Source: Bacteroidota bacterium
GTDB lineage: Bacteria > Bacteroidota > Bacteroidia > Bacteroidales > UBA12077
DNA: 64,000 nucleotides
Assembly (NCBI GenBank): GCA_020444275.1
Contig: JAHLLG010000002.1
Location: 793,991 to 857,990, forward strand
Direction: 5' to 3'
Under the pieces are notes generated by a model. The model searched no databases. It had not been told where the DNA came from and was given only the letters and a program-made list of their open reading frames with translations. The position numbers and the translations under genes were made by a program. This document shows, piece by piece, positions 2,312 through 20,900 of this stretch; within the stretch, counting starts at the first letter, position 1; every line of letters begins with the position of its first letter.

Positions 2312-2554
2312 TCACATTGTGTTTTTCAATGTAATCCGATCTGGAGATTGATAATTAAATAAATGTTGGTATTGTCCTTTTGCCAATTTAGTTCTTAACA
2401 TGATATGATGCGCAGGTACAGGGCTGCCATCGTTTTGTTTGAATAAATTTCTTCTATTTATTTCATCAGCAATTTCTTGCTCAGAAGCTGTTCTGTTGGG
2501 CTTATTCAAAAGAACAACTGCAATAGCTTCATGAAGTTTTAAAAAGTTGTTCAT
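2312..2554 (-). CDS. HARE-HTH (HB1/ASXL/restriction-endonuclease HTH) domain protein
   Basis: This 80-residue protein is essentially one winged-helix-like domain. Residues 5-60 match the HARE-HTH pattern: a first helix LHEAIAVVLLNKP, then EQEIADEINRRNLF, then NDGSPVPAHHIMLRTKL. Family knowledge: HARE-HTH domains are linked with restriction enzymes and DNA-modification readers, and with eukaryotic chromatin proteins. It overlaps the vsr gene by 26 bases and is the last of six genes, so it is probably translated with vsr. It could bind modified DNA for the nuclease or act as the island's regulator. No catalytic residues are visible. Its stop codon lies three bases from the boundary element. Confidence 0.7.
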   Translation of the reverse strand: MNNFLKLHEAIAVVLLNKPNRTASEQEIADEINRRNLFKQNDGSPVPAHHIMLRTKLAKGQYQHLFNYQSPDRITLKNTM

Positions 2555-2969
2555 TTTGTGTAATTTGATTTATAAGTAATTCTAATCTTTTTTCTCTATT
2601 ATTTTTATTCTTTATTTCACATTCCCAAACAATAAAGACTTTCCAACCCATTTTTTTGAGAACTCCCCTATTTTTCTCATCCCTTGTTTTATTATCTGAT
2701 ATTTTTTTAGTCCAAAACTCTTTCCTTGTATCAGGAAGTTTAGCAGCTTTGCAATTATGATTGTGCCAAAAACAGCCATGGACAAATATAATGGATTTGT
2801 ATTTAGGTAGAACTATATCAGGTTTGCCTGGTAAATTGGATACATTTTTTCGATATCTAAATCCTTTGGAGAATAAAAACTTTCGTACAATAATTTCCGG
2901 TTTTGTTTCTTTTCCGGAAATTTTGGACATTAAATTACTTCGTTCTTCTCTTTTATAAATATCAGTCAA
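2529..2969 (-). CDS. vsr: Very-short-patch-repair (Vsr) family endonuclease
   Basis: The 146-residue protein is a full-length Vsr. Residues known to matter in E. coli Vsr appear at the same positions: E25, D51 (in LPGKPDIV), H64 and H69 (in VHGCFWHNHNC). The zinc-site cysteines C66 and C73 and the late WECE motif are also present. The family nicks DNA at T:G mismatches made by deamination of methylated cytosine; some relatives act as restriction nucleases. It starts with TTG, and that codon shares TTGA with the TGA stop of the ATPase gene upstream, so translation is probably coupled. The TTG start gives the E. coli length. As the only clear nuclease beside the Dcm enzyme, it may be the cutting part of the system rather than a repair accessory. 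Confidence 0.93.
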   Translation of the reverse strand: MTDIYKREERSNLMSKISGKETKPEIIVRKFLFSKGFRYRKNVSNLPGKPDIVLPKYKSIIFVHGCFWHNHNCKAAKLPDTRKEFWTKKISDNKTRDEKNRGVLKKMGWKVFIVWECEIKNKNNREKRLELLINQITQNEQLFKTS

Positions 2970-4750
2970 TAGTTTATAATATGTTCAATATATCCTTTTA
3001 TTAATTTGAAGTCATCATTTTGTTTTTTAAACCAATGATTTAGAAATATTTTTTGGATTGCAAAAATATCTTCTCCTGTATTAACACCTTTTACTTCCTT
3101 AGTTAAAACTGCAAATCTTTCTTTATATGCATGTAATCCTAATAATTGATTTAGTTTCTCTTGGGCATCTAGTTCATTAATTTCAAGTAACTTTTTTGCA
3201 ATATTATCATCCCAGATCATTTCCTCCGGAATATTACTAGGTAAGTAAAAAACATTATTTTTATAGAAATCCAAGTATTTTTTTAATAGTTCAACTTTCT
3301 GTTCTTCATTTCCTCCTTGAGCTCCACCATCAACATCAAATGAAATATCTTCATTTGAAATTTCTTTAATCTTTTTTATTAAATACGTGGAATCTATAAT
3401 TCCTATAGAATCATTTCTCCAATCATAACCATCGCAATATTTTTGATCACCATCAAAAAATACATAATTAATACTATTCTGATCTCTGCAAAAAACTTTT
3501 ATAAATTCTTTTTTAATTACTGAAACACCCCCAGGATTATATTTTACATTAAATAAGCTTTTTGTTTCTAATCCAATATTCTCTAGAACTCCATCTACCA
3601 CTGATTTTGCTAATATGTCTTCAACTGTAATATTGTATTTTGTATCAACTTTGTGTTCTAAGTAATAGAATGCTTCTTTTGCAGTAAGATCTTCTTTAAT
3701 TAAAAATCTTCCTGAATCAGGATTTTGATAAAATGTCTTGATTGCACTTCTTGGGAGCATTTTAGCAATAACAGGAGAATGAGTTGATAATATTATTTGA
3801 TGCTTTTTTTTAATAATTTGATTCAGTAAGAAAATAACTAATCTGTTTTGAGCGCCTGGATGAAGAGAAACTTCAGGTTCATCTAGTATAATCAATGAAT
3901 AATCCGGAGCATCAAGGATTTTTAAAACTAACCTCACTATAGCTACTTCCCCACTTCCAGCAAATGCCTCCGAATAATTAGCAAAATTTGAATTAAATAT
4001 CACAGAATATCCATCATTTTTAAAAAAAGTATGTTCAATATATTTAGCACTTTTGTAATTTCTTCCAAGAATAAATGATATTTCGTCCAATTCCGCTCTC
4101 TCTAATAGTCTTATTTCTTTATTATATATTCCAGAACTTTTATTTATAATTTTCTTTTTTCCGTTTATTACTTTCTCAAGATGTTTTGACTGATACCTTA
4201 TATATTCTTGTTTATTTCTTGACTTTAATCCTTTAACATCTCCAAAATAAAAATATTTATCAAAGGCACTTAATTCAGCTCTAAAATCGATATAAACTAC
4301 TTCCTTTTTTATTGGAATATCTCTTTTTTTTCTCGGTTTCATTCCTGCCCATTTTAAAGGCCTACTTGTCTCCCAATAATTAGGATCATTTTCTCTTCGT
4401 ATCCTTGCTTTAATTACTTCTCTTAACTTTCCTTCTTCATCTTTATACGAGTACCAAAATGAATGTCTTTTTCTTTCATCATCATAATATTGTATTGGAT
4501 CAACAGAGGTGCTAAACCAAAACGTAGTTGGTGTTTTACCTTCCGGCATACCATAAGCTGCGTGTAAACAAGTGCTTTTACCACAACCATTTTGTCCAAT
4601 AAAAATTGTTAATGGAAAATTAAAATTGATTACAGAATCTATCTCTATACTATGAAAATATGGAAATCGCAAAAAATCAATATAGTACCTAAACTGATTA
4701 GCTTCTTTGATCTTAATTATTTTTTCTATCTGTTGATTGACATGCATCAT
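2966..4750 (-). CDS. OLD-like ABC-type ATPase with a possible TOPRIM-like C-terminus
   Basis: The 594-residue protein has an SMC/ABC ATPase core: Walker A GQNGCGKS at 52-59, a signature-like AGSGE at 264-268, Walker B LIILDEPE at 286-292, and the switch histidine STH at 322-324. The long insert between Walker A and the signature is typical of OLD-family nucleases. The C-terminal 200 residues contain VFFDGDQ (D433-x-D435), which could be the acidic pair of a TOPRIM nuclease, but the usual leading glutamate motif is not clear, so that part is uncertain. It lies fourth in the island operon, after a 194-base gap, and overlaps vsr by four bases. Related ATPases drive nucleases in anti-phage systems such as Gabija and OLD. 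Confidence 0.8.
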   Translation of the reverse strand: MMHVNQQIEKIIKIKEANQFRYYIDFLRFPYFHSIEIDSVINFNFPLTIFIGQNGCGKSTCLHAAYGMPEGKTPTTFWFSTSVDPIQYYDDERKRHSFWYSYKDEEGKLREVIKARIRRENDPNYWETSRPLKWAGMKPRKKRDIPIKKEVVYIDFRAELSAFDKYFYFGDVKGLKSRNKQEYIRYQSKHLEKVINGKKKIINKSSGIYNKEIRLLERAELDEISFILGRNYKSAKYIEHTFFKNDGYSVIFNSNFANYSEAFAGSGEVAIVRLVLKILDAPDYSLIILDEPEVSLHPGAQNRLVIFLLNQIIKKKHQIILSTHSPVIAKMLPRSAIKTFYQNPDSGRFLIKEDLTAKEAFYYLEHKVDTKYNITVEDILAKSVVDGVLENIGLETKSLFNVKYNPGGVSVIKKEFIKVFCRDQNSINYVFFDGDQKYCDGYDWRNDSIGIIDSTYLIKKIKEISNEDISFDVDGGAQGGNEEQKVELLKKYLDFYKNNVFYLPSNIPEEMIWDDNIAKKLLEINELDAQEKLNQLLGLHAYKERFAVLTKEVKGVNTGEDIFAIQKIFLNHWFKKQNDDFKLIKGYIEHIINY

Positions 4751-4944
4751 TTGTTTCTTTAGCGCATTCTATTATTCACATTCACCTCTTATTTCTTTAA
4801 TAGTAGTATGATATTCCATTTTTAAAGTTCGCTTGTTATATTTAAAAGTAGTTGCTGATAAGGAATTCAAATTACTATTTTCAATGTATATTTTAAATGT
4901 TTAATCTGATTGCTTATCTTTTGAATATAAATCCTACAGACTAT
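4751..4944 (-). other. 194-base gap inside the defence operon
   Basis: This is the only real gap between island genes. On the minus strand it is AT-rich and includes a 15-codon open frame with start MEYHTT at about 4820, ending before the ATPase start; nothing shows that it is used. An internal promoter or an mRNA-processing site could sit here, but no clear TTTG/TAnnTTTG pair was found. Confidence 0.4.
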
Positions 4945-6537
4945 TTATTGTTTTGATAAATGATTTCTCAACCATTCATAATCATCGAGACCAACTCTTG
5001 ATAATTTTACTGAATATGCGTGAACAATTCTTTGTGCTTGATTATCCTTTAATTCTGTAATCCACTTATACCAACTACCATAATCTTTATTCTCCTCACA
5101 ATATGAATAAAAATTTATTCTATTATATTTATGAAAGCCAGATATTGTTTCTTTTTCTGTTGGAGCAAAAGGAATGGTAATAAAATCAGAAACTAAGTAA
5201 TTTAATCTAAATTTTTTATACCCATCATGATTTATTATTATATCAAATTGATTATCCTCTGATTCAATCATAGGAACAAAGAGTATATTTGTAACTTCTT
5301 TTAAACGAACAGAATCACATTTAGGTTGTAAACACAAATAATAATTTCCTCTTGTTAAATTCTGAATAATTGTTCCTAATTGCAATATAGGTTTAAAAGA
5401 TTTATTGTTTAGAGTTATTTTATTTTGAGTAATAAAAGAAAATCCCAGGTCATTGTTTACATCATAATTCCCTTTTTTTGAAAAAAATCTCGATCCATCT
5501 ATTTGAAAAGATTTTCTAATTTTTTGTAGTTTCTTTCCAGATATATCGCTATCAGTCTGCATCCTCCAGTGTTCTTTGATTGCATTATCAAACCCTTTCA
5601 TGATAACATCCTTTAACACTTCTCCATTTACATTAAACCCTTCAACAGTATTAGATGTAATATTATTATCATCGATCCAATAACTTAAGTTATCGTGACT
5701 AACTATTTTTTCAACATCATCATATATCATTAAATCTGCCAGAGTTTCCTTTAACTGATCTACAATAAAATTTTGTGCATTTTCAGTTAAACTTCTATGA
5801 GCTAAGTAAGATCCATCAAAATTTTCACTATTATATAAATTTAACAGTTTAAATGTATGTGCCCTTATTGAACAAATAGACTTTGTAACAATGTTTCCTA
5901 AAAGTCCTTTCGTAAGGTATGAAAACTCTCTTGATATAGCATCAGGTAGTTCATCAAAACTATATGCCCTATCTCTAATTTCCGCTATTCTATGCTCTTT
6001 ATGATTCCTTTTACCTAATATAGCTATTCTGATTTTATCTTTTTGAATTGTGAAATCGTTTATGCTCTCAAAATTTAGATCTCTCTCATTCAAATAATCC
6101 TTAATTGAATCGATTATCTGAACCATTCCATTTTCTGCAGTATAAATTATGATAATTTTAAGCTTTTCCTCTTTTAGTGCATTTAAAACTATATTGAATA
6201 TTATTGGGTTAGTATATTTTCCTCTTACATCATCACTTTCTGCATCATCTTCTAAGTCTTTCTCATCAAGATCATCTTTTTTTTCTTCTGAATGTAACTT
6301 CCAATCTAATATAGTTACATCGGAATTTTGATCCATTAATATTATATCTTCAGAGTCTAATTCAGAATCAAACTTTACAATTGAGCAATTTTTTTTATGT
6401 TTAGCAAACGCACTTACTACATCTTTTGTGTTAAATTCTCCCCCATAACTTGCTTCATCATCAGCAATTAGTACCGAATTTATGAAATTACTTGCAATAT
6501 TTTTTGATAAATCCGAAAAGTTAGTTGTCATCATCAT
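4945..6537 (-). CDS. Receiver-domain (response-regulator-like) protein of the island
   Basis: The open frame extends to 6591, but three ATGs at 6537, 6534 and 6531 follow an AAAAAAGG stretch and overlap the end of the kinase gene by up to 17 bases. These are the likely starts; 6531 has the best spacing. Near the N-terminus is a receiver-like fold: the acidic pair in VLIADDEAS, then VTILDWKL, whose aspartate (codon 6304-6306) is the probable phosphate acceptor, then IIIIYTAEN. A strongly acidic insert of about 25 residues (DDLDEKDLEDDAESDD) interrupts the domain. The remaining 350 residues match no domain I know and hold no DNA-binding motif I recognise. Overlap with a kinase-like partner suggests a phospho-relay. 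The output is unknown. Confidence 0.75.
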   Translation of the reverse strand: MMMTTNFSDLSKNIASNFINSVLIADDEASYGGEFNTKDVVSAFAKHKKNCSIVKFDSELDSEDIILMDQNSDVTILDWKLHSEEKKDDLDEKDLEDDAESDDVRGKYTNPIIFNIVLNALKEEKLKIIIIYTAENGMVQIIDSIKDYLNERDLNFESINDFTIQKDKIRIAILGKRNHKEHRIAEIRDRAYSFDELPDAISREFSYLTKGLLGNIVTKSICSIRAHTFKLLNLYNSENFDGSYLAHRSLTENAQNFIVDQLKETLADLMIYDDVEKIVSHDNLSYWIDDNNITSNTVEGFNVNGEVLKDVIMKGFDNAIKEHWRMQTDSDISGKKLQKIRKSFQIDGSRFFSKKGNYDVNNDLGFSFITQNKITLNNKSFKPILQLGTIIQNLTRGNYYLCLQPKCDSVRLKEVTNILFVPMIESEDNQFDIIINHDGYKKFRLNYLVSDFITIPFAPTEKETISGFHKYNRINFYSYCEENKDYGSWYKWITELKDNQAQRIVHAYSVKLSRVGLDDYEWLRNHLSKQ

Positions 6538-9511
6538 TTCCTTTTTTAAATATCTTAAAGGTGACCGTGCTATCCTTACGAGGATTGGCAACTAAACTAA
6601 TATCCCAACCTTCAGCGTTTAATACTTCTTTTGAAATATGGAGTCCCATTCCCCTACCTTTTAATTTTCTAGTAAAACCAAGATCAAAAATCCGTTCAGA
6701 ATCTCTTGGTGAAATTTCAGGTCCATTATTTGAAACATAAAACCCATTTTCATCAGCATGTAGTCTTATTATTTTTTCTTTAATTGTTTGATCTTGTTTT
6801 AACCAATAAAGAGCATTATCAACTAAATTTACGTAAACTGGATAAAATGTCGAATGAAATCCATAAAAACTATGTTGTTCAAATCCTTTAGTGTGCCTTA
6901 ACCTAATTCCATGTCTTTCCAATCTGGCTTTAAATAAATCTAATAAGAATATTTTAATATCTAGACATTTTATTTCAGTTCTACTTCTTTGCAGTCGGCG
7001 ATTAAGTGGAGTAAATAAATTCAAATAACTATCTAAATGATCAAAACTAAGTTTAATATTCTCATAAAGACTTTCCATATTCTGATTTACATCTGCCCAG
7101 GCTTTTAAATCTTTTATACTCTTACGAATAACTTTTACTGTACTATCAAACTCATGGTGTATAACCCCAACGGCTAATCCAAGCTGACTTAATTCAATAT
7201 CAGCAGTTATTTTATCTTTTAATTCAGCAATTTCTTCTTCAAGAGAATCTTGAATCTGGTCATTTGTTATAAAGCTACCTTTATCCTTTTCCCAATAAAT
7301 ACTCTCTAATTGGTTAATTATTCTTTCGAGAATTTCAGTATTTCTGTTCTTCTCTGAAACTATAATCTCCTCAATCCTTCTTCTTTCAATAACAAGATCA
7401 AAATCATCTTTTCCTGATATTTCATAGCTTTTAAATTCATTTCGAACGTCTCTTATTTTATCCTGCAAACTAATCATTAATTCGTTTGCCAATTTCTTTA
7501 CTTTAATAGATACGTCATCGGCTACTTCCTTAGCTTCGACTTCTTTCTTTTTGGTCACTTTTTTGGCATCTTCAGAAATTGCTACCACTGCTGACTCGAG
7601 TCTTTTTCTTTTACTTAATTCTAAATGTAATTTGTTTCTATATTTCTCTACCAGTTCATCTATCTTTTCATCAGCAGGATTAAAAACGTTTATCGTTAAT
7701 TTGTCCATTTCTTGTAGAAAAGCCTCATAGTCATGTTTTTGTTCTTTGGTTGGAGAAAATCCTTTTGGAGCAGGGACTATCCAGCTAGATTTCAAAGAGT
7801 TTAGCTTCTCTCTTGCATCTTGCTCATAATCTAGCAATTTTTGTGTAGCTTGATCTTTATCTTCGATATATGCAACAGAATTAAAATGCTTTTCAAATTC
7901 TAATAATAAGTTCTCTGTTTCTAAGTTATATTGTTTTTTCTCTAGATTATTAAAAAAAACATTTAACCTTTGAGAGAATTGAGCTTTCCTTTCCTTTGCC
8001 CTATTTTCTCTTTTTTCTATAGCCTTATAATATGATTCTCTATCTTTTCTTCTTTCTATCCAAAACTCAGATTTAGCACTTCCACCTTCTCTAAAAAAAT
8101 CGGCAGCTAATTGCAGAAAGAAATTCATAAGAATTTCCCTTAAGTGTTTATATGCCTTATTTTCAACAAACCCCTCCCTTCCAGCTTTCTCAACTAAACT
8201 TTTATTATTTTTCTGTTCAATACATACAGCACCAAACATTCGTCTGAAAGAAAAGAAATAATATGATGCACTTTTTGTCCTATTTTTTTCAATATCAATA
8301 AAATCATAATCACTTAAACCATATGGCAAAATTCTAATACCATCTTTATATATATATAATCCTCCAAACTTATCAACCTTTGCAAGAAGCCTAGAATGTT
8401 CTTCCTGTGGTAATGATGATTGCCTTAGCAAACCTTGTAAATATGATACATCAATTGAAAATGGTCCGCAAGCTGTTTCCTTAAAATTATTTCCTCCCCA
8501 AACTATTTTGTGTTCAAATTCCTTTTCATTGTAAATCTTTACAGTACCTGTAAATTGACCATATTCATCAAATTTTCCCCGAAATTGATGATCCATTTTT
8601 AAAAATTCATCTGGAGCAAAGAATTCATCTTTATCAATTAAATTATAATAGGTTTTATCATCACCTCTATAATCCCTAAATGCAGTTTCTATAAAAGGTT
8701 CTGGATGCTTAGGAATCATTGTGTTAGTAAATCCATGTAACATTCTTTCTAATGGTGCCGAACCTTTATCATCTTTAATACCATCAATCGAATAATTTAA
8801 TGTTTCATTGGTAGGAGAAATATAAAAGTGAGTACCATGACCATCTTTATTGAGTGATAATCCTTTCAATTTTTTATCCAATTCGAAAGGATCTAGCTTA
8901 AAGTCTCTAATGGTTTGACCAATATCTTCAAAGTCATCCCATTCTATTTTATCCTGATTATACAATTCTTCAAGATTTTTTAATGATTCTTCCTTTAAAT
9001 CATCTATAACATAGTAAACAGGCATTTCATGATACTCAAATTCCATTAAAGGAATATTTATATCTTCAAGATCTAATCCTGGTAATTCGAATAAATCCCA
9101 ATTAATAAACGCAAGAATATAATTTTGTAAAACTCCACTTCTTATTGCTCTACTTAAAACAAGCACCTGCTTCCCTAATGCTGCAATTGCCAATCTTCCG
9201 ATCCCTTTTTCGCCCATAACAGGCCTTTTAGGCTTATTTGGATCAATAGGTGGTGGAGTCATTCTCCCTTTGGAGTACTTACTTTCAGTACCTACTGTTA
9301 ACCAACGACTTTGAAATTCTTCCAATGTCATACCAAGTCCATCATCTCTTAAAACGAGTAACTTATCTTTTCTAAAATAATCAATCTCCACTTTATCAGC
9401 ATAAGCATCATGTGCGTTTTTAAACAATTCACTTATAGCGGTTGGCACACCAGCTATTTGCTGTCTACCTAGCATATCTAATGCTCTAGCTCTGGTTTTA
9501 AAGTAAGCCAT
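6521..9511 (-). CDS. Two-headed GHKL ATPase: MORC/HSP90-like N-terminus and histidine-kinase-like C-terminus
   Basis: In this 996-residue protein the N-terminal ATPase shows motif I ELFKNAHDAY (N32), DDGLGM (D56-D57) and VMGEKGIGRLA (100-108). That is the layout of HSP90/MutL/MORC-type GHKL ATPases found in restriction operons. Residues about 500-760 are charged and coiled-coil-like. A second module follows: a dimerisation-type helix with HHEF (H785-H786), an N-box NLVDNALYW (N895, N899), a G1-like SNNGPEI and a G2 box GRGMGLHISKEVL. The second module looks like a working histidine kinase, although the G1 aspartate is replaced by Asn. It starts four bases after dcm and overlaps the receiver gene, so the three are one translational unit. 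No membrane segment is present, so it should act in the cytoplasm. Confidence 0.88.
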   Translation of the reverse strand: MAYFKTRARALDMLGRQQIAGVPTAISELFKNAHDAYADKVEIDYFRKDKLLVLRDDGLGMTLEEFQSRWLTVGTESKYSKGRMTPPPIDPNKPKRPVMGEKGIGRLAIAALGKQVLVLSRAIRSGVLQNYILAFINWDLFELPGLDLEDINIPLMEFEYHEMPVYYVIDDLKEESLKNLEELYNQDKIEWDDFEDIGQTIRDFKLDPFELDKKLKGLSLNKDGHGTHFYISPTNETLNYSIDGIKDDKGSAPLERMLHGFTNTMIPKHPEPFIETAFRDYRGDDKTYYNLIDKDEFFAPDEFLKMDHQFRGKFDEYGQFTGTVKIYNEKEFEHKIVWGGNNFKETACGPFSIDVSYLQGLLRQSSLPQEEHSRLLAKVDKFGGLYIYKDGIRILPYGLSDYDFIDIEKNRTKSASYYFFSFRRMFGAVCIEQKNNKSLVEKAGREGFVENKAYKHLREILMNFFLQLAADFFREGGSAKSEFWIERRKDRESYYKAIEKRENRAKERKAQFSQRLNVFFNNLEKKQYNLETENLLLEFEKHFNSVAYIEDKDQATQKLLDYEQDAREKLNSLKSSWIVPAPKGFSPTKEQKHDYEAFLQEMDKLTINVFNPADEKIDELVEKYRNKLHLELSKRKRLESAVVAISEDAKKVTKKKEVEAKEVADDVSIKVKKLANELMISLQDKIRDVRNEFKSYEISGKDDFDLVIERRRIEEIIVSEKNRNTEILERIINQLESIYWEKDKGSFITNDQIQDSLEEEIAELKDKITADIELSQLGLAVGVIHHEFDSTVKVIRKSIKDLKAWADVNQNMESLYENIKLSFDHLDSYLNLFTPLNRRLQRSRTEIKCLDIKIFLLDLFKARLERHGIRLRHTKGFEQHSFYGFHSTFYPVYVNLVDNALYWLKQDQTIKEKIIRLHADENGFYVSNNGPEISPRDSERIFDLGFTRKLKGRGMGLHISKEVLNAEGWDISLVANPRKDSTVTFKIFKKGNDDDN

Positions 9512-9515
9512 ATAC

Positions 9516-10541
9516 TTATTTTTTTAAACAGCGTCCTATTTTTTCGGCAAGTTTTGGAGGTACTGCATTTCCGATCATTCTAGCAACTGTTCCTTGGCTG
9601 TTCGAGTAAAATTTATAATCTAAAGGAAAACTTTGTATTGTTGCTCCTTCTCTCAATGAAATAGCTCTATCTTGTTCAGGGTGACCATATCTTCCGTTTG
9701 AATAACTTACAAATCTAGTAGTTATGGTTGGTGCCGGTTTATCCCAACTCATCCTTCCATATACGTCATAATGTCCGGAATGATCATTATAGCAATTTGG
9801 CTGCAAATTTTCAGGCCAGCTTCTTCTATCACCTCCATTATGTTTTGTTGCTTTTATTCTTTTTAAGTTCAGTGCACTCAGTTTGGCGGAGCTATGCTTT
9901 AGGTCAGACTTATCTATATGTCCCGCTTCAATGGAAGGAAATTTTTTAGAATCTCCAATTGCTTGACGTAGAGTTGTTATGTTATTTTTATTTTCCTTAG
10001 GTAATTTTATCTCTTTTTTAACTCGACTAGCTATTAAAACATATCTTCTCCTATTTTGAGGTACACCAAAATACTTTGAATTTAACACCCCTTCATCAAA
10101 AACATAATCATTTTTAACTAAGAACTTCTTGAATTTTCCGAGTGGACTTTCCGGTTTATTATCTAATCCAGGCACATTCTCTATAAAAACATATCCTGGT
10201 CTGTAAAAATCCACGAATTCTTGAAAATCTGCCAGAAGTAACCTGGTTTGACAAGATTTAGTTTTATCAGTTTTTATATTTGAGTAATATTGACAGGGAC
10301 TACATCCTACAAATATCAGATCGTCCTGATTTTTTTTAACTTTAAAAAAGGAAGCTACTTTTTCTTTATCTAAAGATGATACGTCAGCAGACAGAAATTT
10401 TGCATTATTATTCTTTTCATATGTTTCCTTACATGAAGCATCAATATCAATACCTCCTAATACATCTATTCCTGCTTCTTTAAACCCGCGTGTTACCCCG
10501 CCTATGGAGCAAAAAAAATCAACTGCCTTTAATTTCTTCAT
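9516..10541 (-). CDS. dcm: DNA (cytosine-5) methyltransferase
   Basis: The 341-residue enzyme has the ordered C5-methyltransferase motifs: motif I DFFCSIGGVTRGF, in which the usual Phe-Ala/Ser-Gly-x-Gly is altered; motif IV GCSPCQ with the catalytic C83; motif VI FIENVPG; motif VIII PQNRRRYV; and motif X IGNAVPP near the end. The target-recognition region between VIII and IX is short. It is the first gene of the island operon, with the operator-like dyads at 10565-10653 upstream. Together with Vsr it forms a Dcm-Vsr pair, though separated by three large signalling and ATPase genes. The recognition sequence cannot be read from the protein. Confidence 0.93.
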   Translation of the reverse strand: MKKLKAVDFFCSIGGVTRGFKEAGIDVLGGIDIDASCKETYEKNNNAKFLSADVSSLDKEKVASFFKVKKNQDDLIFVGCSPCQYYSNIKTDKTKSCQTRLLLADFQEFVDFYRPGYVFIENVPGLDNKPESPLGKFKKFLVKNDYVFDEGVLNSKYFGVPQNRRRYVLIASRVKKEIKLPKENKNNITTLRQAIGDSKKFPSIEAGHIDKSDLKHSSAKLSALNLKRIKATKHNGGDRRSWPENLQPNCYNDHSGHYDVYGRMSWDKPAPTITTRFVSYSNGRYGHPEQDRAISLREGATIQSFPLDYKFYSNSQGTVARMIGNAVPPKLAEKIGRCLKK

Positions 10542-15229: not shown

Positions 15230-15976
15230 CTAAAATATCAAATCTTTATAAACATATTCTTCAGTTGCCTCTGGAACATTACCTGGCGAATCTTTCCCAG
15301 TAAGTTTACGCACGGTATGTGTATGAAGCTCTTTTTGAGGATATGGTTTAATTAACTTTTTAACTAATTGCTGATCCGTTGAAGTTAACCACTCATCTTC
15401 TAAACCTTCAGGCAAAATTACCGGCATGCGTGGTTCGGGTAATTTTGGGTTGTTATGAATTTTTGCCATTATCGGATTGGCCTTGGTGGTGACAATGGAA
15501 CAACTGGTAAGCGCCTCTCCTGTTTCTTTATTGGTCCATTCGCTCCAGATTCCGGCTAAATTCATCGGTTCTTTATTGATCTGCCTGATGTAATAAGGAT
15601 ATTTTTGTCCTTTAAAATGATGATGTTCATAGAAACCATTTACAGGAATGATGCATCTTTTGTTTTTTGCGGCATCACGAAATGATGGTTTTTCAAATAG
15701 TGATTCACCCCGTGCATTAATCGTTTTATTTTGGATACTCTTTGCATCCTTCTCCGTTTTTATCCAGTGCGGAATTAATCCCCAGTGAAAAAGTTCTGGT
15801 TTATAAGGCTTTAAATTGCTATATGCTATGATTTTAGGATGTGCAAACCCTGAAGCATTATACTGATCTTCGAACCCTTTAAGAATCTCTTCAATGCGCT
15901 GAATATTGCGTTCATCGTTCCAGTACTTAGCTCTTTTTAATGCTGCTTGTAATCGTTGTTCTATGGTATAACACAT
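15230..15976 (-). CDS. SRAP (HMCES/YedK) abasic-site DNA-protein crosslink protein
   Basis: The 248-residue protein begins MCYTIE. After removal of Met, Cys2 is the residue that bonds to abasic sites in single-stranded DNA. Other active-site residues are in place: N87 (INARGESL), E117 (PVNGFYEH) and H174 (KIHNNP). The motif usually read as HxRMPVIL is stretched here to HNNPKLPEPRMPVIL, a small insertion. The family shields abasic sites at forks and is often found with SOS genes, which fits the lexA-dinB-dnaE2 cluster just upstream, although a 425-base gap separates it from them. Confidence 0.9.
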   Translation of the reverse strand: MCYTIEQRLQAALKRAKYWNDERNIQRIEEILKGFEDQYNASGFAHPKIIAYSNLKPYKPELFHWGLIPHWIKTEKDAKSIQNKTINARGESLFEKPSFRDAAKNKRCIIPVNGFYEHHHFKGQKYPYYIRQINKEPMNLAGIWSEWTNKETGEALTSCSIVTTKANPIMAKIHNNPKLPEPRMPVILPEGLEDEWLTSTDQQLVKKLIKPYPQKELHTHTVRKLTGKDSPGNVPEATEEYVYKDLIF

Positions 15977-16401
15977 AGGTTAATTTCTTTCAGATGATTA
16001 ATTTACAAAATAAAATGCTTTAATGACTTTTTATAGTAGGAATTTCAAAATATTGACTACCAATTATGTAATATAAAACAACTTTTTAAACCTTTAAGTT
16101 ATGTAGCTTATTTGTTCTTTCCTTGATGAAAGAACCAAAATCAATCGAAATGAACGAATTTTGATAATCTATCCATTTCTTTTTTAATCCATGTATTTCA
16201 AGAATGCTTTTAATCATGACTCTCTATTATAATTTTGTGGTCACTTGGTGATTATCAACAATTCCACACCCATTTCGTCTTCCCCACTACGCATCCTATT
16301 CGTTGCATTCCAATTCTATAATGTTTAGTATTTGCCCGACAAAGTTTATCGTTGATAAACGATAGCGAAAAAACAGAAGGTTAATCATAACAATTTTAAA
16401 T
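15977..16401. other. 425-base intergenic region, no gene
   Basis: It is AT-rich. One clear hairpin, GTTCTTTC-CTTGAT-GAAAGAAC, lies near 16114-16135, and GTTTATC/GATAAAC near 16340. The phrase CCACACCCATTT near 16263 also occurs near 10743. Nothing protein-coding is seen. Confidence 0.5.
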
Positions 16402-19395
16402 TCATAATAGCTTTTCATTTGATGGTAAAACCTTTGGTCTTAACCGCGTTGATGGCTCTTCAATGTTCACATTGGCTAACCGATGTAATTCAGTAACCTC
16501 AATACTTATAAAACCGAATTCGCTTATTACTTTTCCTTTAATCAAGTAACATCCGGGACCACGAAAAGGATATTCTTTTGCAATATTCGGAAACTGTACG
16601 GTATCTATCCAATAGCCTTCAATATCAATAAAGGTTCCAAAACTCATTCGTTTGCCACCTCCTGTTCGGGTTCCTTTTACATGAACCAGGTAACCTACAA
16701 TTTCAACCTGCTTATTTACCAGGTGAACAAGATTCCTGGATACCAATGTTGTTTCGGGCATTTCATCTATCAACTTAAACGGTGAAATACTCGATGAGAA
16801 TCCCAGTAGCTCTAATTCGTCATACGCAGGTTCTAATGGATGCGCATACAGCTCAGGCAGACTGAATTCTTTAGGTTTCTCATTAAATAATGTTTTTACA
16901 GGCTTGGTCTTTTTATCCTTTTTTAAAATAAAATGTGCATCCCAAAGCAGCTCCTTTTTATTTTTGCCGGTAAAACGAAAAGCATTCACCCGAAGCAATA
17001 TGGTTAGCTGCTCGAGCGATATGGGAACCCGTTTCATAAAATCACGCAAATCTTTAAATGTTCCGTTGGTATATCGCTCAATCAAAATGCTTCTCATCGT
17101 TTCTCTTTCGAGATGATCAATCAAATCCAAACCTAAATGAATAACGTTTTTATGAATCACAGTTTCCGATTCGCTGATATTGATGCAAGGAGCTTCAATT
17201 TGGCCACCAAGCATGCGGGCTTCGTGTACATAGAGCTCTTTACGGTAAAAACCGCCACCATTGTTAATGGTTGCTACGATATATTCGAGCGGGTAATGCG
17301 CTTTTAAGTAAAGTGCCTGGTAACTTTCTACCGCATACGAAGCCGAATGTCCCTTGGAAAAAGCATAGTTTGCAAAACTTTCAATCTGAGTCCACACTTG
17401 CTGTACAATATGCAGCGGATAATTTCTCTCTTTACAGTTAGAAAAAAATTTATCTTTGATCTTACCAAATTCGTTACGCTGCTTAAATTTCCAGGACATT
17501 CCCCTACGCAAAATATCAGCCTCGGCCAGTGTTAATCCGGCGAAATAATGTGCTACCTTAATGACATCTTCCTGGTAAACCATAACCCCGTAGGTTTCTT
17601 TTAATAAATCGTACAATTGGGGCATCTCTTTTCGGGCTACTTCTCTCCTTTCCGGATACCGGTATCGTAAGATATATTCGCGCATCATGCCACTTTTAGC
17701 AACTCCCGGGCGAATAATTGAGCTTGCTGCTACCAGCCTGATGTAATCATCAGCTTCGAGTTTAGTAAGCAGCATACGCATAGCCGGCGATTCTACATAA
17801 AAACATCCGATTGTTTTTCCTTTACTCAATAGTTTTTTTACTTTTTCATCTTTCTTAAATCGCTCTAAATCATGAATATCGACTTTATTACCTGTATTAT
17901 TTTTTACAATTTCTATGGCATCTTCAATCTTGCTTAACCCACGCTGGCCCAGCACATCGAACTTGGCAAACCCGAGATCTTCCGCTTCGAGCATACTAAA
18001 ATGTATGGTAGGAAAACCTTTAGGGGGCATTATAGTTGCCGTATAAGCACTTATAGGTTTTTCAGAGATGATAATTCCGCTGGAATGCACGCTTAAATGA
18101 CTCGGAAAACCATGAATAAGCTTGCTGTACTTTAAAACCAATTGCCCCATCTCATCAATATCGGCCAGGTTTTTAGCTTTTTGTAGTTTTTCAATTTCTT
18201 GCGATGGCAACCCAAAAACTTTACCTATCTCACGAATCATAGAGCGATACTGAAAAGTAATGTATGTTCCGACCAAAGCGGTATGATTCCAGCCATGCCT
18301 GTCGAAAAGATACTTTGTAATATTGTTTCTGTCGCGCGATGCAAAATCAATATCAAAATCGGGCGGACTGTTTCGTGCCGGATTGATAAAACGCTCGAAA
18401 TACAGATCGAGCTCAATGGGATCAACATCGGTAATACGCAACAGGTAGGCAACCATACTGTTGGCTCCACTCCCACGACCTACGTAATAACAGCCTTTGC
18501 TTCGTGCATACTGAACCATATCCCAGTTGATTAAAAAATAAGAACAGAAATTCAGCTCTTTAATAACTTCCAACTCTTTTTTAATACGGTCAAACACTTC
18601 GTCGGATGGATCTTTGTACCTGTATTTTATGCCTTTGTAGCTTTCGCTTACCAGCAGTTTATAATCTTCGTCGTGCGAGCTGGTATACGTTTGTTTGTTT
18701 TTTGATGTTTTAAACTCGAAGTGAATAGAGCAACTGTCAAGGAGTTTCTTCGTGTTTTCAATGATTTGAGGATAATCTTTAAAATGATTTAAAATATCCT
18801 GATGCGGATACATGATTTCGTTAGGATTTGCTTCTTCGGATTTGGGCAAACGACTCAATAATATGTTCTTATCTATTGCGCGAAGTAACCGATGAATGTT
18901 AAAATCGCGTTTATGCCGAAAGGTAACAGGCTGTAAAACAACTAATTTATCCAGAGAGTTCTTCCATTTGGAAAAAGGAAGCTTATTCAGTTGCGATGGT
19001 ATTATTCCAATAAATTCATTTTTATTTAATTCTTGATAATTAGTATAATTAAACGGATATATAATGTACGCATCTGAAAAAACAGGCGCTGTAGACGGGA
19101 AATCTTCTTCGGAATGCAAATGGTGTGTTAAATGCTCGTTTAACTGCTGAAATCCTTTGTTATTTTGTGCTATCCCAATGTATTGTTGATCAGCCCCATT
19201 TCTAAAATCAATACCTAAAACGGGCTTTATTTGCGCTTTTTCGCACTGACGGATAAAATCAAAACAGGCCGATGTGTTATTGATGTCGGTAAGCACAATA
19301 GAATCATATGATTTTGCCTTGGCTTCCTCTATTAACTGTTCGATAGAAAGTGTTCCAAATTTGTAGCTGTAGTATGTGTGGCAGTTTAGTAACAA
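16402..19395 (-). CDS. dnaE2: Error-prone DNA polymerase III alpha subunit (DnaE2/ImuC type)
   Basis: At 997 residues it is shorter than replicative DnaE. In order: an N-terminal PHP domain (LNCHTYYSYKFG, where the metal-binding set is incomplete), the C-family palm with GRGSGANS and catalytic aspartates D346, D348 and D350 (PPDFDIDF), a helix-hairpin-helix region, and a C-terminal OB fold (VEIVGYLVHVKGTRTGGG). DnaE2 extends past lesions during the SOS response. It lies 227 bases after dinB and could be in one transcription unit with lexA and dinB. Its short length and the altered PHP motif argue against the housekeeping replicase. Confidence 0.9.
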   Translation of the reverse strand: MLLNCHTYYSYKFGTLSIEQLIEEAKAKSYDSIVLTDINNTSACFDFIRQCEKAQIKPVLGIDFRNGADQQYIGIAQNNKGFQQLNEHLTHHLHSEEDFPSTAPVFSDAYIIYPFNYTNYQELNKNEFIGIIPSQLNKLPFSKWKNSLDKLVVLQPVTFRHKRDFNIHRLLRAIDKNILLSRLPKSEEANPNEIMYPHQDILNHFKDYPQIIENTKKLLDSCSIHFEFKTSKNKQTYTSSHDEDYKLLVSESYKGIKYRYKDPSDEVFDRIKKELEVIKELNFCSYFLINWDMVQYARSKGCYYVGRGSGANSMVAYLLRITDVDPIELDLYFERFINPARNSPPDFDIDFASRDRNNITKYLFDRHGWNHTALVGTYITFQYRSMIREIGKVFGLPSQEIEKLQKAKNLADIDEMGQLVLKYSKLIHGFPSHLSVHSSGIIISEKPISAYTATIMPPKGFPTIHFSMLEAEDLGFAKFDVLGQRGLSKIEDAIEIVKNNTGNKVDIHDLERFKKDEKVKKLLSKGKTIGCFYVESPAMRMLLTKLEADDYIRLVAASSIIRPGVAKSGMMREYILRYRYPERREVARKEMPQLYDLLKETYGVMVYQEDVIKVAHYFAGLTLAEADILRRGMSWKFKQRNEFGKIKDKFFSNCKERNYPLHIVQQVWTQIESFANYAFSKGHSASYAVESYQALYLKAHYPLEYIVATINNGGGFYRKELYVHEARMLGGQIEAPCINISESETVIHKNVIHLGLDLIDHLERETMRSILIERYTNGTFKDLRDFMKRVPISLEQLTILLRVNAFRFTGKNKKELLWDAHFILKKDKKTKPVKTLFNEKPKEFSLPELYAHPLEPAYDELELLGFSSSISPFKLIDEMPETTLVSRNLVHLVNKQVEIVGYLVHVKGTRTGGGKRMSFGTFIDIEGYWIDTVQFPNIAKEYPFRGPGCYLIKGKVISEFGFISIEVTELHRLANVNIEEPSTRLRPKVLPSNEKLL

Positions 19396-19508
19396 GTTTA
19401 TTGGTAAATTAGTGAATTAGTAAAATTGTAAATTGGTTAATATGTTAATTTGTTTTTTCAAAGTTGCTAGTTACTAGTTTCTGGTTTAATGATTATTCTT
19501 AGTTTACT

Positions 19509-19533
19509 GACTGTGGACTGTGGACTGTGGACT
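19509..19533. repeat. Short tandem repeat (GACTGTG)x3
   Basis: Three perfect copies of a 7-base unit plus a partial fourth, in the dnaE2-dinB gap. Low-complexity T-rich sequence surrounds it. Confidence 0.8.
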
Positions 19534-19622
19534 ATTGACAATGGACAGATACTATTTACTATCTTTTCCTACACTCTGACAGGTTTTAATTTATAATTCC
19601 TCATTCTACATTTATAATTCGT

Positions 19623-20837
19623 TTATATTCTTCTGTGTGCAGGGATTACAGGTGGTTGCCCGTTAAATGGATTAGACATTTGCCCTATTCCTCTTGTTCC
19701 CATGGTTACAACACGCTTAATTGCATTTTGCCCGTATCGGTTTCTAATTCGATCCATGGCCTGATAGAGATTTACCATTTCGGCAGTATCTTCAAAAAGG
19801 TTCATTTGATAGGTTCCCGAAAGTAAATGACTAAACCGTACTCCAACCAAGCGCACCAATACTCTGCGCTCATATAACTGATCGAATAGTTCCAAGGTTG
19901 TTTTAATCAATGTATGGTCCAGCGATGTATACGGAATTCGCTTTTGCCGTGTACGCGTGTCAAAGTCAGAATATCTTACTGTAACCGTAACACAAGATGT
20001 AAGTTTATTTCCGTTTCGGAGGTAATAACTCAATTTCTCAGCCATAGATGCAAGTATGTTTTTCAATTGCCGAACATCAATGGTATCTTTCTCGAGTGTT
20101 AACGATGATGAAATGGATTTACGTTCATGGTAAGGTTCAACAGGCGTATTATCAATGCCCTGGGCTTTTTTCCAGAGCATGATCCCGTTTTTACCCAGCA
20201 CCCTATCCATTAATTCCATAGGCATTTCCTGCACTGTTTTTACGTATTTTATACCCATGTTTAACAGTGTTTTATAGGTCTGATCACCAACCATAGGGAT
20301 TTTTTTAACAGCCAATGGAGCCAAAAAAGGTTTTTCTATGCCGAATGGTACATTAATGTGATTATTGGGTTTAGCTTCGTTGGTGGCTACTTTCGAGACA
20401 GTTTTACTGGTTGAAAGCCCGAAAGATATAGGTAACCGGGTCTCTTTTACAATTTTCTGACGAAGCTCCTGAGCCCATTTATAGGTTCCGAAAAATTTAT
20501 CCATCCCGGTAACATCAATATAGAATTCGTCGATAGAAGATTTTTCGTACAAAGGCGATTGTTCCTTAATGATTTCGGTAACCATATCGGAGAATTTACT
20601 GTAGATAGAACTATTCCCACGAATTACGGTTGCTTCGGGACAAAGCATTTGTGCCATTCGCATAGGCATGGCCGAATGGATACCATATTGGCGTGCTTCA
20701 TAGCTACACGCAGCCACAACACCTCTCCCGCTGGTTCCACCAACCAAAACAGGTTTACCATTCAGGCTGGAATCGAGTAGCCGCTCACACGACACAAAAA
20801 AAGTGTCTAAATCAATATGAACTATAGACTTATGCAT
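19623..20837 (-). CDS. dinB: DNA polymerase IV (Y family)
   Basis: The frame extends to a TTG at 20852, but the ATG at 20835-20837 (MHKSIVHIDLD) matches known family starts. Catalytic residues are visible: D9 and D11 in HIDLDTFF, and D103-E104 in SSIDEFYIDVTG. YEARQYGIHSAMP is the fingers motif. The HhH region near PMVGDQTYKTLL and the little-finger domain complete a full-length enzyme of 404 residues. No clear beta-clamp QLxLF motif is visible at the very end; MNLFEDT near 360 may serve. It lies 63 bases after lexA, in the same direction, and is probably co-transcribed with it. Confidence 0.95.
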   Translation of the reverse strand: MHKSIVHIDLDTFFVSCERLLDSSLNGKPVLVGGTSGRGVVAACSYEARQYGIHSAMPMRMAQMLCPEATVIRGNSSIYSKFSDMVTEIIKEQSPLYEKSSIDEFYIDVTGMDKFFGTYKWAQELRQKIVKETRLPISFGLSTSKTVSKVATNEAKPNNHINVPFGIEKPFLAPLAVKKIPMVGDQTYKTLLNMGIKYVKTVQEMPMELMDRVLGKNGIMLWKKAQGIDNTPVEPYHERKSISSSLTLEKDTIDVRQLKNILASMAEKLSYYLRNGNKLTSCVTVTVRYSDFDTRTRQKRIPYTSLDHTLIKTTLELFDQLYERRVLVRLVGVRFSHLLSGTYQMNLFEDTAEMVNLYQAMDRIRNRYGQNAIKRVVTMGTRGIGQMSNPFNGQPPVIPAHRRI

Positions 20838-20900
20838 CTGTTCAGTTAACAATAATCAATGATCAATTTTCAAATACTTGTGTAAATTCCCTGTTTAAGT

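Follow-up and report, generated by a model that had tools for sequence, protein, structure and literature searches.

The window, a stretch of 64,000 nucleotides of Bacteroidota DNA, carries on its minus strand a run of six open reading frames, read in the order methyltransferase, kinase, receiver, OLD-like ATPase, Vsr and a final 80-aa ORF:

9516..10541, minus strand: DNA (cytosine-5) methyltransferase, 341 aa (Pfam DNA_methylase, 185 bits; NCBIfam dcm above cut-off)
6521..9511, minus strand: two-headed GHKL protein, 996 aa, with MORC-like ATPase, coiled coil and histidine kinase
4945..6531, minus strand: response-regulator-like protein, 528 aa from the ATG at 6531 (Pfam Response_reg_2)
2966..4750, minus strand: OLD-like ATPase/Toprim-like candidate nuclease, 594 aa, optional cargo
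2529..2969, minus strand: Vsr very-short-patch-repair endonuclease (Pfam Vsr, E 1.4e-34; TIGR00632 above cut-off)
2312..2554, minus strand: 80-aa ORF overlapping the Vsr gene, membership uncertain (placed by position only)

The C5 methyltransferase gene is the first gene of the core, and the kinase/receiver pair sits inside a restriction-modification (R-M) operon. The DNA methyltransferase of a type II R-M system is thus present; Vsr and the OLD-like ATPase accompany it, neither being a shown cognate restriction enzyme, and no canonical endonuclease was found in the three-gene core. The methyltransferase and kinase genes are separated by 4 nt and the kinase and receiver genes overlap, which suggests a single transcription unit for the three. 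The receiver ORF had been listed with a TTG start at 6591; homologues favour an ATG at 6537, 6534 or 6531, which reduces the true overlap to about 11–17 nt (receiver residues are numbered here from ATG 6531). A gap of 194 nt (4751-4944) follows the receiver gene and may hold a separate promoter for the OLD-like ATPase, Vsr and 80-aa genes; in several relatives the ATPase gene begins 5–13 nt past the receiver gene. The 80-aa ORF (2312-2554, minus strand) had zero matches in Pfam, NCBIfam and PADLOC, and by eye has a small winged-helix-like look. Beside the island, a minus-strand cluster at 15230-20852 resembles a mutagenesis cassette, as judged by eye from translations, with a SRAP/HMCES-like ORF (15230-15976), a DNA polymerase III alpha-like ORF (16402-19395) and a DinB-like Y-family polymerase (19623-20852).

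The 996-aa protein was examined by Pfam, by an AlphaFold2 model built with 56 sequences (mean pLDDT 80.7, pTM 0.62), and by comparison with relatives from a phylum-wide search and a species-genome scan (at least 80 loci), from which 87 kinase sequences were aligned. Its parts are as follows:

9038..9511, minus strand: N-terminal GHKL ATPase domain, residues 1-158, with motifs E28, N32, D56xGxG and G100EKGIGR (HATPase_c_3; invariant motifs; MORC3/SMCHD1/HSP90 fold)
8219..8836, minus strand: S5/transducer-like part, residues ~226-431 (inside the MORC3 structural match, 10-485)
7304..8158, minus strand: long helical, coiled-coil-like region, residues ~452-736 (AlphaFold2 secondary structure)
7022..7264, minus strand: DHp dimerisation/phosphoacceptor helices, residues ~750-830, with H786-E787-F788 (HEF_HK, 94 bits)
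7154-7156, minus strand: codon for H786
6545..6985, minus strand: CA kinase ATPase domain, residues ~843-989, with N-, G1-, F- and G2-boxes (HATPase_c; ThkA match)

Three Pfam families matched above their curated cut-offs, namely HATPase_c_3 (residues 24-123, E 2.7e-13), HEF_HK (776-842, E 8e-27, 94 bits against a cut-off of 24.1) and HATPase_c (892-987, E 5.4e-16), an order that is the group 1 architecture. In the model, long helices (452-736) follow a GHKL domain and an S5-like module and lead on to a DHp helix (750-808) and a CA domain (845-989). When it was compared with solved structures, residues 10-485 superposed on the ATPase cassette of MORC3 (Z 18.5, 327 aligned, 4.1 A), followed by MORC4, SMCHD1, HSP90 and MORC2, and residues 842-994 on the kinase domain of ThkA (Z 18.4, 144 aligned, 2.6 A), with wider stretches matching HK853; Foldseek agreed. 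Sequence profiles alone gave HtpG for residues 40-127 (E 2.6e-4) and ThkA for residues 759-987 (E 1.3e-14). From these structure and profile matches, MORC3- and HtpG-like at one end and ThkA-like at the other, the chain as modelled carries two GHKL modules of different types, one MORC/HSP90 and one histidine kinase. The sequence-only reading had claimed just this, two unlike heads with a long coiled coil between them, and on both counts it was borne out.

The HSP90/MORC-type motifs that it had seen in the N-terminal head were also confirmed: E28, N32, D56, G58, G60, M61, G100, K102, G103 and G105 are identical in all 87 sequences, and E101 in 86. Within the S5-like part K378, R393 and R411 are invariant, as are K442 and R445 just beyond it. 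The N-terminal GHKL domain with intact ATP motifs and the S5 domain that mark MORC/paraMORC proteins are therefore both present. The head also shows a likeness to those of BbrUII/HgiDII-type restriction enzymes, with a score below the whole-protein cut-off.

For the C-terminal head, the histidine-kinase DHp with N- and G2-boxes was upheld by the HEF_HK match and by conservation: N895 and N899 are identical in 87 of 87, and G952, G954 and G956 in 86 with one gap. The HHEF motif fared less evenly. Its HEF part (H786, E787, F788) is invariant in 87/87, and H786 lines up with the HE of ThkA and ZraS; on this basis H786 is likely the phosphoacceptor. The preceding H785, put forward earlier as another candidate site, is rejected as not conserved, with His in only 40 of the 87 and otherwise N (30), D (8), Q (4), S (4) or G (1). 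Loss of the HEF residues or of the receiver Asp among homologues had been named beforehand as what would refute the relay reading; it was looked for and did not occur: H786 was kept in 87/87 and the Asp in 78/78. Four positions past the His, most sequences have Ser, Gly or Ala. HisKA phosphatases use Thr or Asn at this +4 position, from which we infer that the phosphatase activity of the kinase head may be weak. At position 928 of the G1 box the usual residue is Asp; here Asn was found in 60/87 sequences and Asp in 26, and ThkA also aligns an Asn.

The overlapping receiver-like gene proved to encode a true REC receiver, joined to a conserved domain that the sequence-only reading had passed over, as it had the R-M context and a publication of 2021, so that it was in all partly supported:

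5908..6531, minus strand: receiver domain, residues 1-208, with D24, D25, D76, T131 and K174 (REC fold)
4948..5418, minus strand: conserved C-terminal output domain, residues ~372-528, with C400, C405-D406, R409 and R512

Response_reg_2 (PF19192) matched with 63 bits against a cut-off of 27. In the model (pLDDT 92.1, pTM 0.88) residues 1-208 adopt a REC fold (best Z 12.8, 118 aligned, 2.5 A), and the features expected of Response_reg_2, i.e., an acidic pair, a phosphoacceptor Asp, Thr, Lys and a (beta-alpha)5 fold, were all found. D24 and D76 are kept in 78 of 78 sequences, K174 in 77, T131 in 75 and D25 in 74. A helical part (~209-369) leads to the output domain, which is strand-rich; among 67-78 sequences G386, C400, C405, D406 and R409 are invariant, R512 is near-invariant and E519-W520 are mostly kept. 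The resulting motif, C-x4-C-D-x2-R, is common to the receivers of the compact clade (see below) too. The Pfam scan of 67 receiver proteins found no family that matched the output domain consistently and no recognised DNA-binding output domain; a PDB sequence search with the output-domain profile gave nothing credible; and Foldseek, run with the model of the entire receiver on PDB and BFVD, gave no match below E 0.001, its second search covering mainly residues 15-208. A PemK-like toxin barrel was tried too: set against a single PemK-like protein, the profile gave no match (E 0.13 over 6 columns), a comparison that leaves the fold itself possible. What chiefly calls for explanation in the system is this conserved domain, since the Response_reg_2 proteins were described without any other known domain in the main text of Bellieny-Rabelo et al. 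(PMC8011034), and any activity given to it is a guess, as it has no recognised relative.

Of the 84 loci that could be tested, 83 have the methyltransferase gene no more than 300 nt from the kinase gene, and the receiver gene was found by BLAST directly 3' of the kinase gene in at least 80/84; three of the four exceptions are receivers too diverged for BLAST, as those loci were fetched via a PF19192 match. The kinase and receiver families co-diverge: over 74 loci the distance correlation was 0.887 for kinase-receiver, 0.617 for kinase-methyltransferase and 0.583 for receiver-methyltransferase, and 0 of 999 permutations reached any of the three. The nuclease cargo is swappable: 10 loci carry an OLD-like ATPase, 10 an HNH_2-type protein, about 5 a McrBC-like pair and more than 30 Vsr; many loci are without Vsr. 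Where at least 3 kb was available downstream, 41 of 66 loci had only Vsr or none of the labelled cargo families, a count in which unlabelled ORFs could hide others. The OLD-like ATPase of the window matched AAA_21 and PADLOC HEC-04, has PtuA, OLD and AriA as PDB relatives, and keeps Walker A, GSGE, LDEPE and E377-D378/D433-x-D435 invariant in 10 homologues. In one locus (L030, 6285-10733) the OLD-like ATPase gene is interrupted by an insertion with a rve/Mu-type transposase. Bare three-gene loci were seen amid unrelated genes on Pantoea and Pseudoalteromonas plasmids, suggesting that the core needs no other nuclease and that an effector lies inside it.

PF19192 exceeded its cut-off in 9 of 395 genomes of the phylum and in 3 of 149 of the order. 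The operon order recurs across Bacteria and Archaea, the matches listed including Methanosarcina, Methanoperedens, Chloroflexi, Nitrospira and Acidobacteria, and matches occur on plasmids and on 13 IMG/VR viral contigs. This rare, patchy, cross-phylum occurrence, with carriage on plasmids and viral contigs, is what one expects of defence genes that move as a set; PADLOC holds no model for a methyltransferase-kinase-receiver system.

The protein of the window belongs to a published kind, and the novelty lies in details. Its architecture, receiver linkage and R-M context were described in 2021 (PMC8011034), where, according to the main text, 174 of 222 proteins had HATPase_c_3 + HEF_HK + HATPase_c and receiver adjacency was 91.6%; the architecture, the adjacent receiver gene and the neighbourhood of C5 methyltransferase and Vsr are the same in the window, whereas that main text reports no experiment and describes neither the compact clade, nor the C-x4-C-D-x2-R domain, nor how the N-module folds as a whole. 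New here are the MORC-type fold of the whole N-module, the fold of the kinase module, the correct His (H786), the shared C-terminal domain of the receivers, the compact clade, the exchangeable cargo and the bare three-gene loci. MORC-like R-M ATPases were described in 2008 (Iyer et al., PMC2292703); these paraMORC/MORC GHKL-S5 ATPases share the N-terminal GHKL + S5 and the R-M context with cytosine methylase and Vsr, but the window adds a fused full histidine kinase and a paired receiver, and its core is without a helicase. VcSduA of Shedu type I-D (paraMORC3; PMC12137116), for which anti-phage activity was shown and whose GHKL head is proposed to control the effector, has a fused DUF4263 nuclease as effector, in contrast to the kinase and separate receiver protein here; Pfam gave no DUF4263 match in the 996-aa protein, which lacks this mark of Shedu type I-D. 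The kinase head shares the DHp + CA fold and the H/N/G/F boxes with ThkA, HK853 and ZraS, and differs from classical kinases in that its sensor is a second ATPase, its HEF H-box is without the usual Thr/Asn at +4 and it is soluble, the main text of PMC8011034 reporting no membrane segment in the family. A search of the open-access literature found no experimental work on the HEF_HK/Response_reg_2 family.

Phosphorelay-like logic in phage defence has a precedent in Detocs, a defensive two-component-like system. Detocs is listed in PMC10952713, and its effector domain is a PNP (PF01048) on the response regulator. We know of no MORC head or methyltransferase in Detocs, and PNP (PF01048) gave no match on the receiver protein of the window, which lacks this mark of Detocs.

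The domain make-up, the predicted folds, the conserved catalytic heads, the His, the Asp and the gene linkage are direct observations, and from them we infer that the operon is probably a restriction (anti-phage) system using a phosphate relay; to the reading as a phosphorelay-controlled, R-M-linked module acting in defence against foreign DNA we assign a probability of about 0.5, held down mainly by the output. Counting against it are an output domain with no recognised relative, a core in which no canonical endonuclease was found, the Asn in the G1 box of 60/87 sequences and the lack of a PADLOC model. The methyltransferase would label self DNA, and the N-terminal MORC/MutL-like ATPase would be an ATP-driven clamp, closing probably on unmarked DNA. 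The coiled coil would relay clamp closure to the DHp helix, whose H786 the C-terminal kinase head would phosphorylate, and the phosphate would pass to D76 of the adjacent receiver protein, activating its Cys-Cys-Asp-Arg C-terminal domain. The activated domain might then cut DNA itself or license an adjacent nuclease, which would be the OLD-like ATPase here and HNH or McrBC at other loci. If this is true, a histidine-aspartate phosphorelay that takes its signal from a MORC-type DNA clamp would gate restriction, and two-component signalling, MORC/MutL ATPases and restriction would be joined in one three-gene module that would serve as a simple bacterial model of MORC clamp signalling, readily testable for its small core and clear active residues.

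The constant linkage to the methyltransferase, and a receiver with its own distinct C-terminal domain, would also suit a two-component regulator of the R-M genes that senses nucleotide pools or the state of the DNA and controls how strongly or when the methyltransferase and nearby nucleases are expressed, with no attack on DNA; this is close to the control over R-M systems on which the main text of PMC8011034 speculates. Such a regulator seems unlikely, however, given that Pfam recognised no DNA-binding output domain in the 67 receiver proteins and that in the bare methyltransferase-kinase-receiver loci there is no nuclease for it to act on. A role in DNA repair or stress signalling tied to cytosine methylation, not mainly anti-phage, with a MutL-like clamp as sensor and Vsr handling T:G mismatches, is a good deal harder to credit: Vsr is missing from many loci, and carriage on plasmids and viral contigs with defence-type nuclease cargo suits defence better, although Vsr does occur in many loci, the head is of MORC/MutL type and the mutagenesis-type cluster lies close by in the window.

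It is also conceivable that kinase head and receiver are a docking scaffold without phosphotransfer and that ATP clamping by the N-terminal head alone drives restriction. The Ser/Gly/Ala at +4 in place of Thr/Asn, and the Asn that replaces the G1 Asp in most sequences, would agree with this; we consider it very improbable, as the strict conservation of H786, E787, N895, N899, the G2 box, D24, D76 and K174 is hard to explain without phosphotransfer.

Returning to the relay-controlled defence module, its kind is wider than the published definition, as seen from a clade of compact two-headed proteins (~690-790 aa) found on many plasmids. These are full-length homologues of the kinase (profile E 1.2e-73) with the coiled coil mostly missing, and across nine sequences the His, the two ATP sites and the G2 box never vary; HEF_HK and Response_reg_2 were undetected in the members scanned. 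The gene after the compact kinase encodes a receiver-like protein in which an Asp and, near the end, a Cys-Asp are invariant (8/8 aligned); the C-terminal part of this protein matched Response_reg_2 proteins with E 1.5e-5 (L020) and more weakly, with E 0.0069, in Campylobacter. A DNA methyltransferase lay nearby in 6 of 9 compact loci, the Enterobacter, Polaromonas and Pseudanabaena loci showing none. We raise only tentatively that the HEF_HK clade and the compact clade are two, at least, of a wider and so far undescribed class of restriction systems under phosphorelay control, in which a MORC-headed kinase is paired with a receiver that would carry a phosphorylation-switched Cys-Asp effector of a new type.

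Some single loci had further features. In L092 (14655-16289) a second GHKL protein of 544 aa (HATPase_c_3 + Hypoth_Ymh) is encoded immediately 3' of the receiver gene. Campylobacter pTet plasmids (L109, 5983-12358) carry a compact kinase, a receiver, a C5 methyltransferase and an unrelated AAA ATPase; the AAA protein of the window, compared with it as a possible homologue, had no meaningful similarity. On a Polaromonas plasmid (L116, 1-10219) a compact kinase and a 675-aa receiver-like protein, with no methyltransferase in view, are flanked by an FtsK/SpoIIIE-type gene and a PAPS-reductase-family gene.
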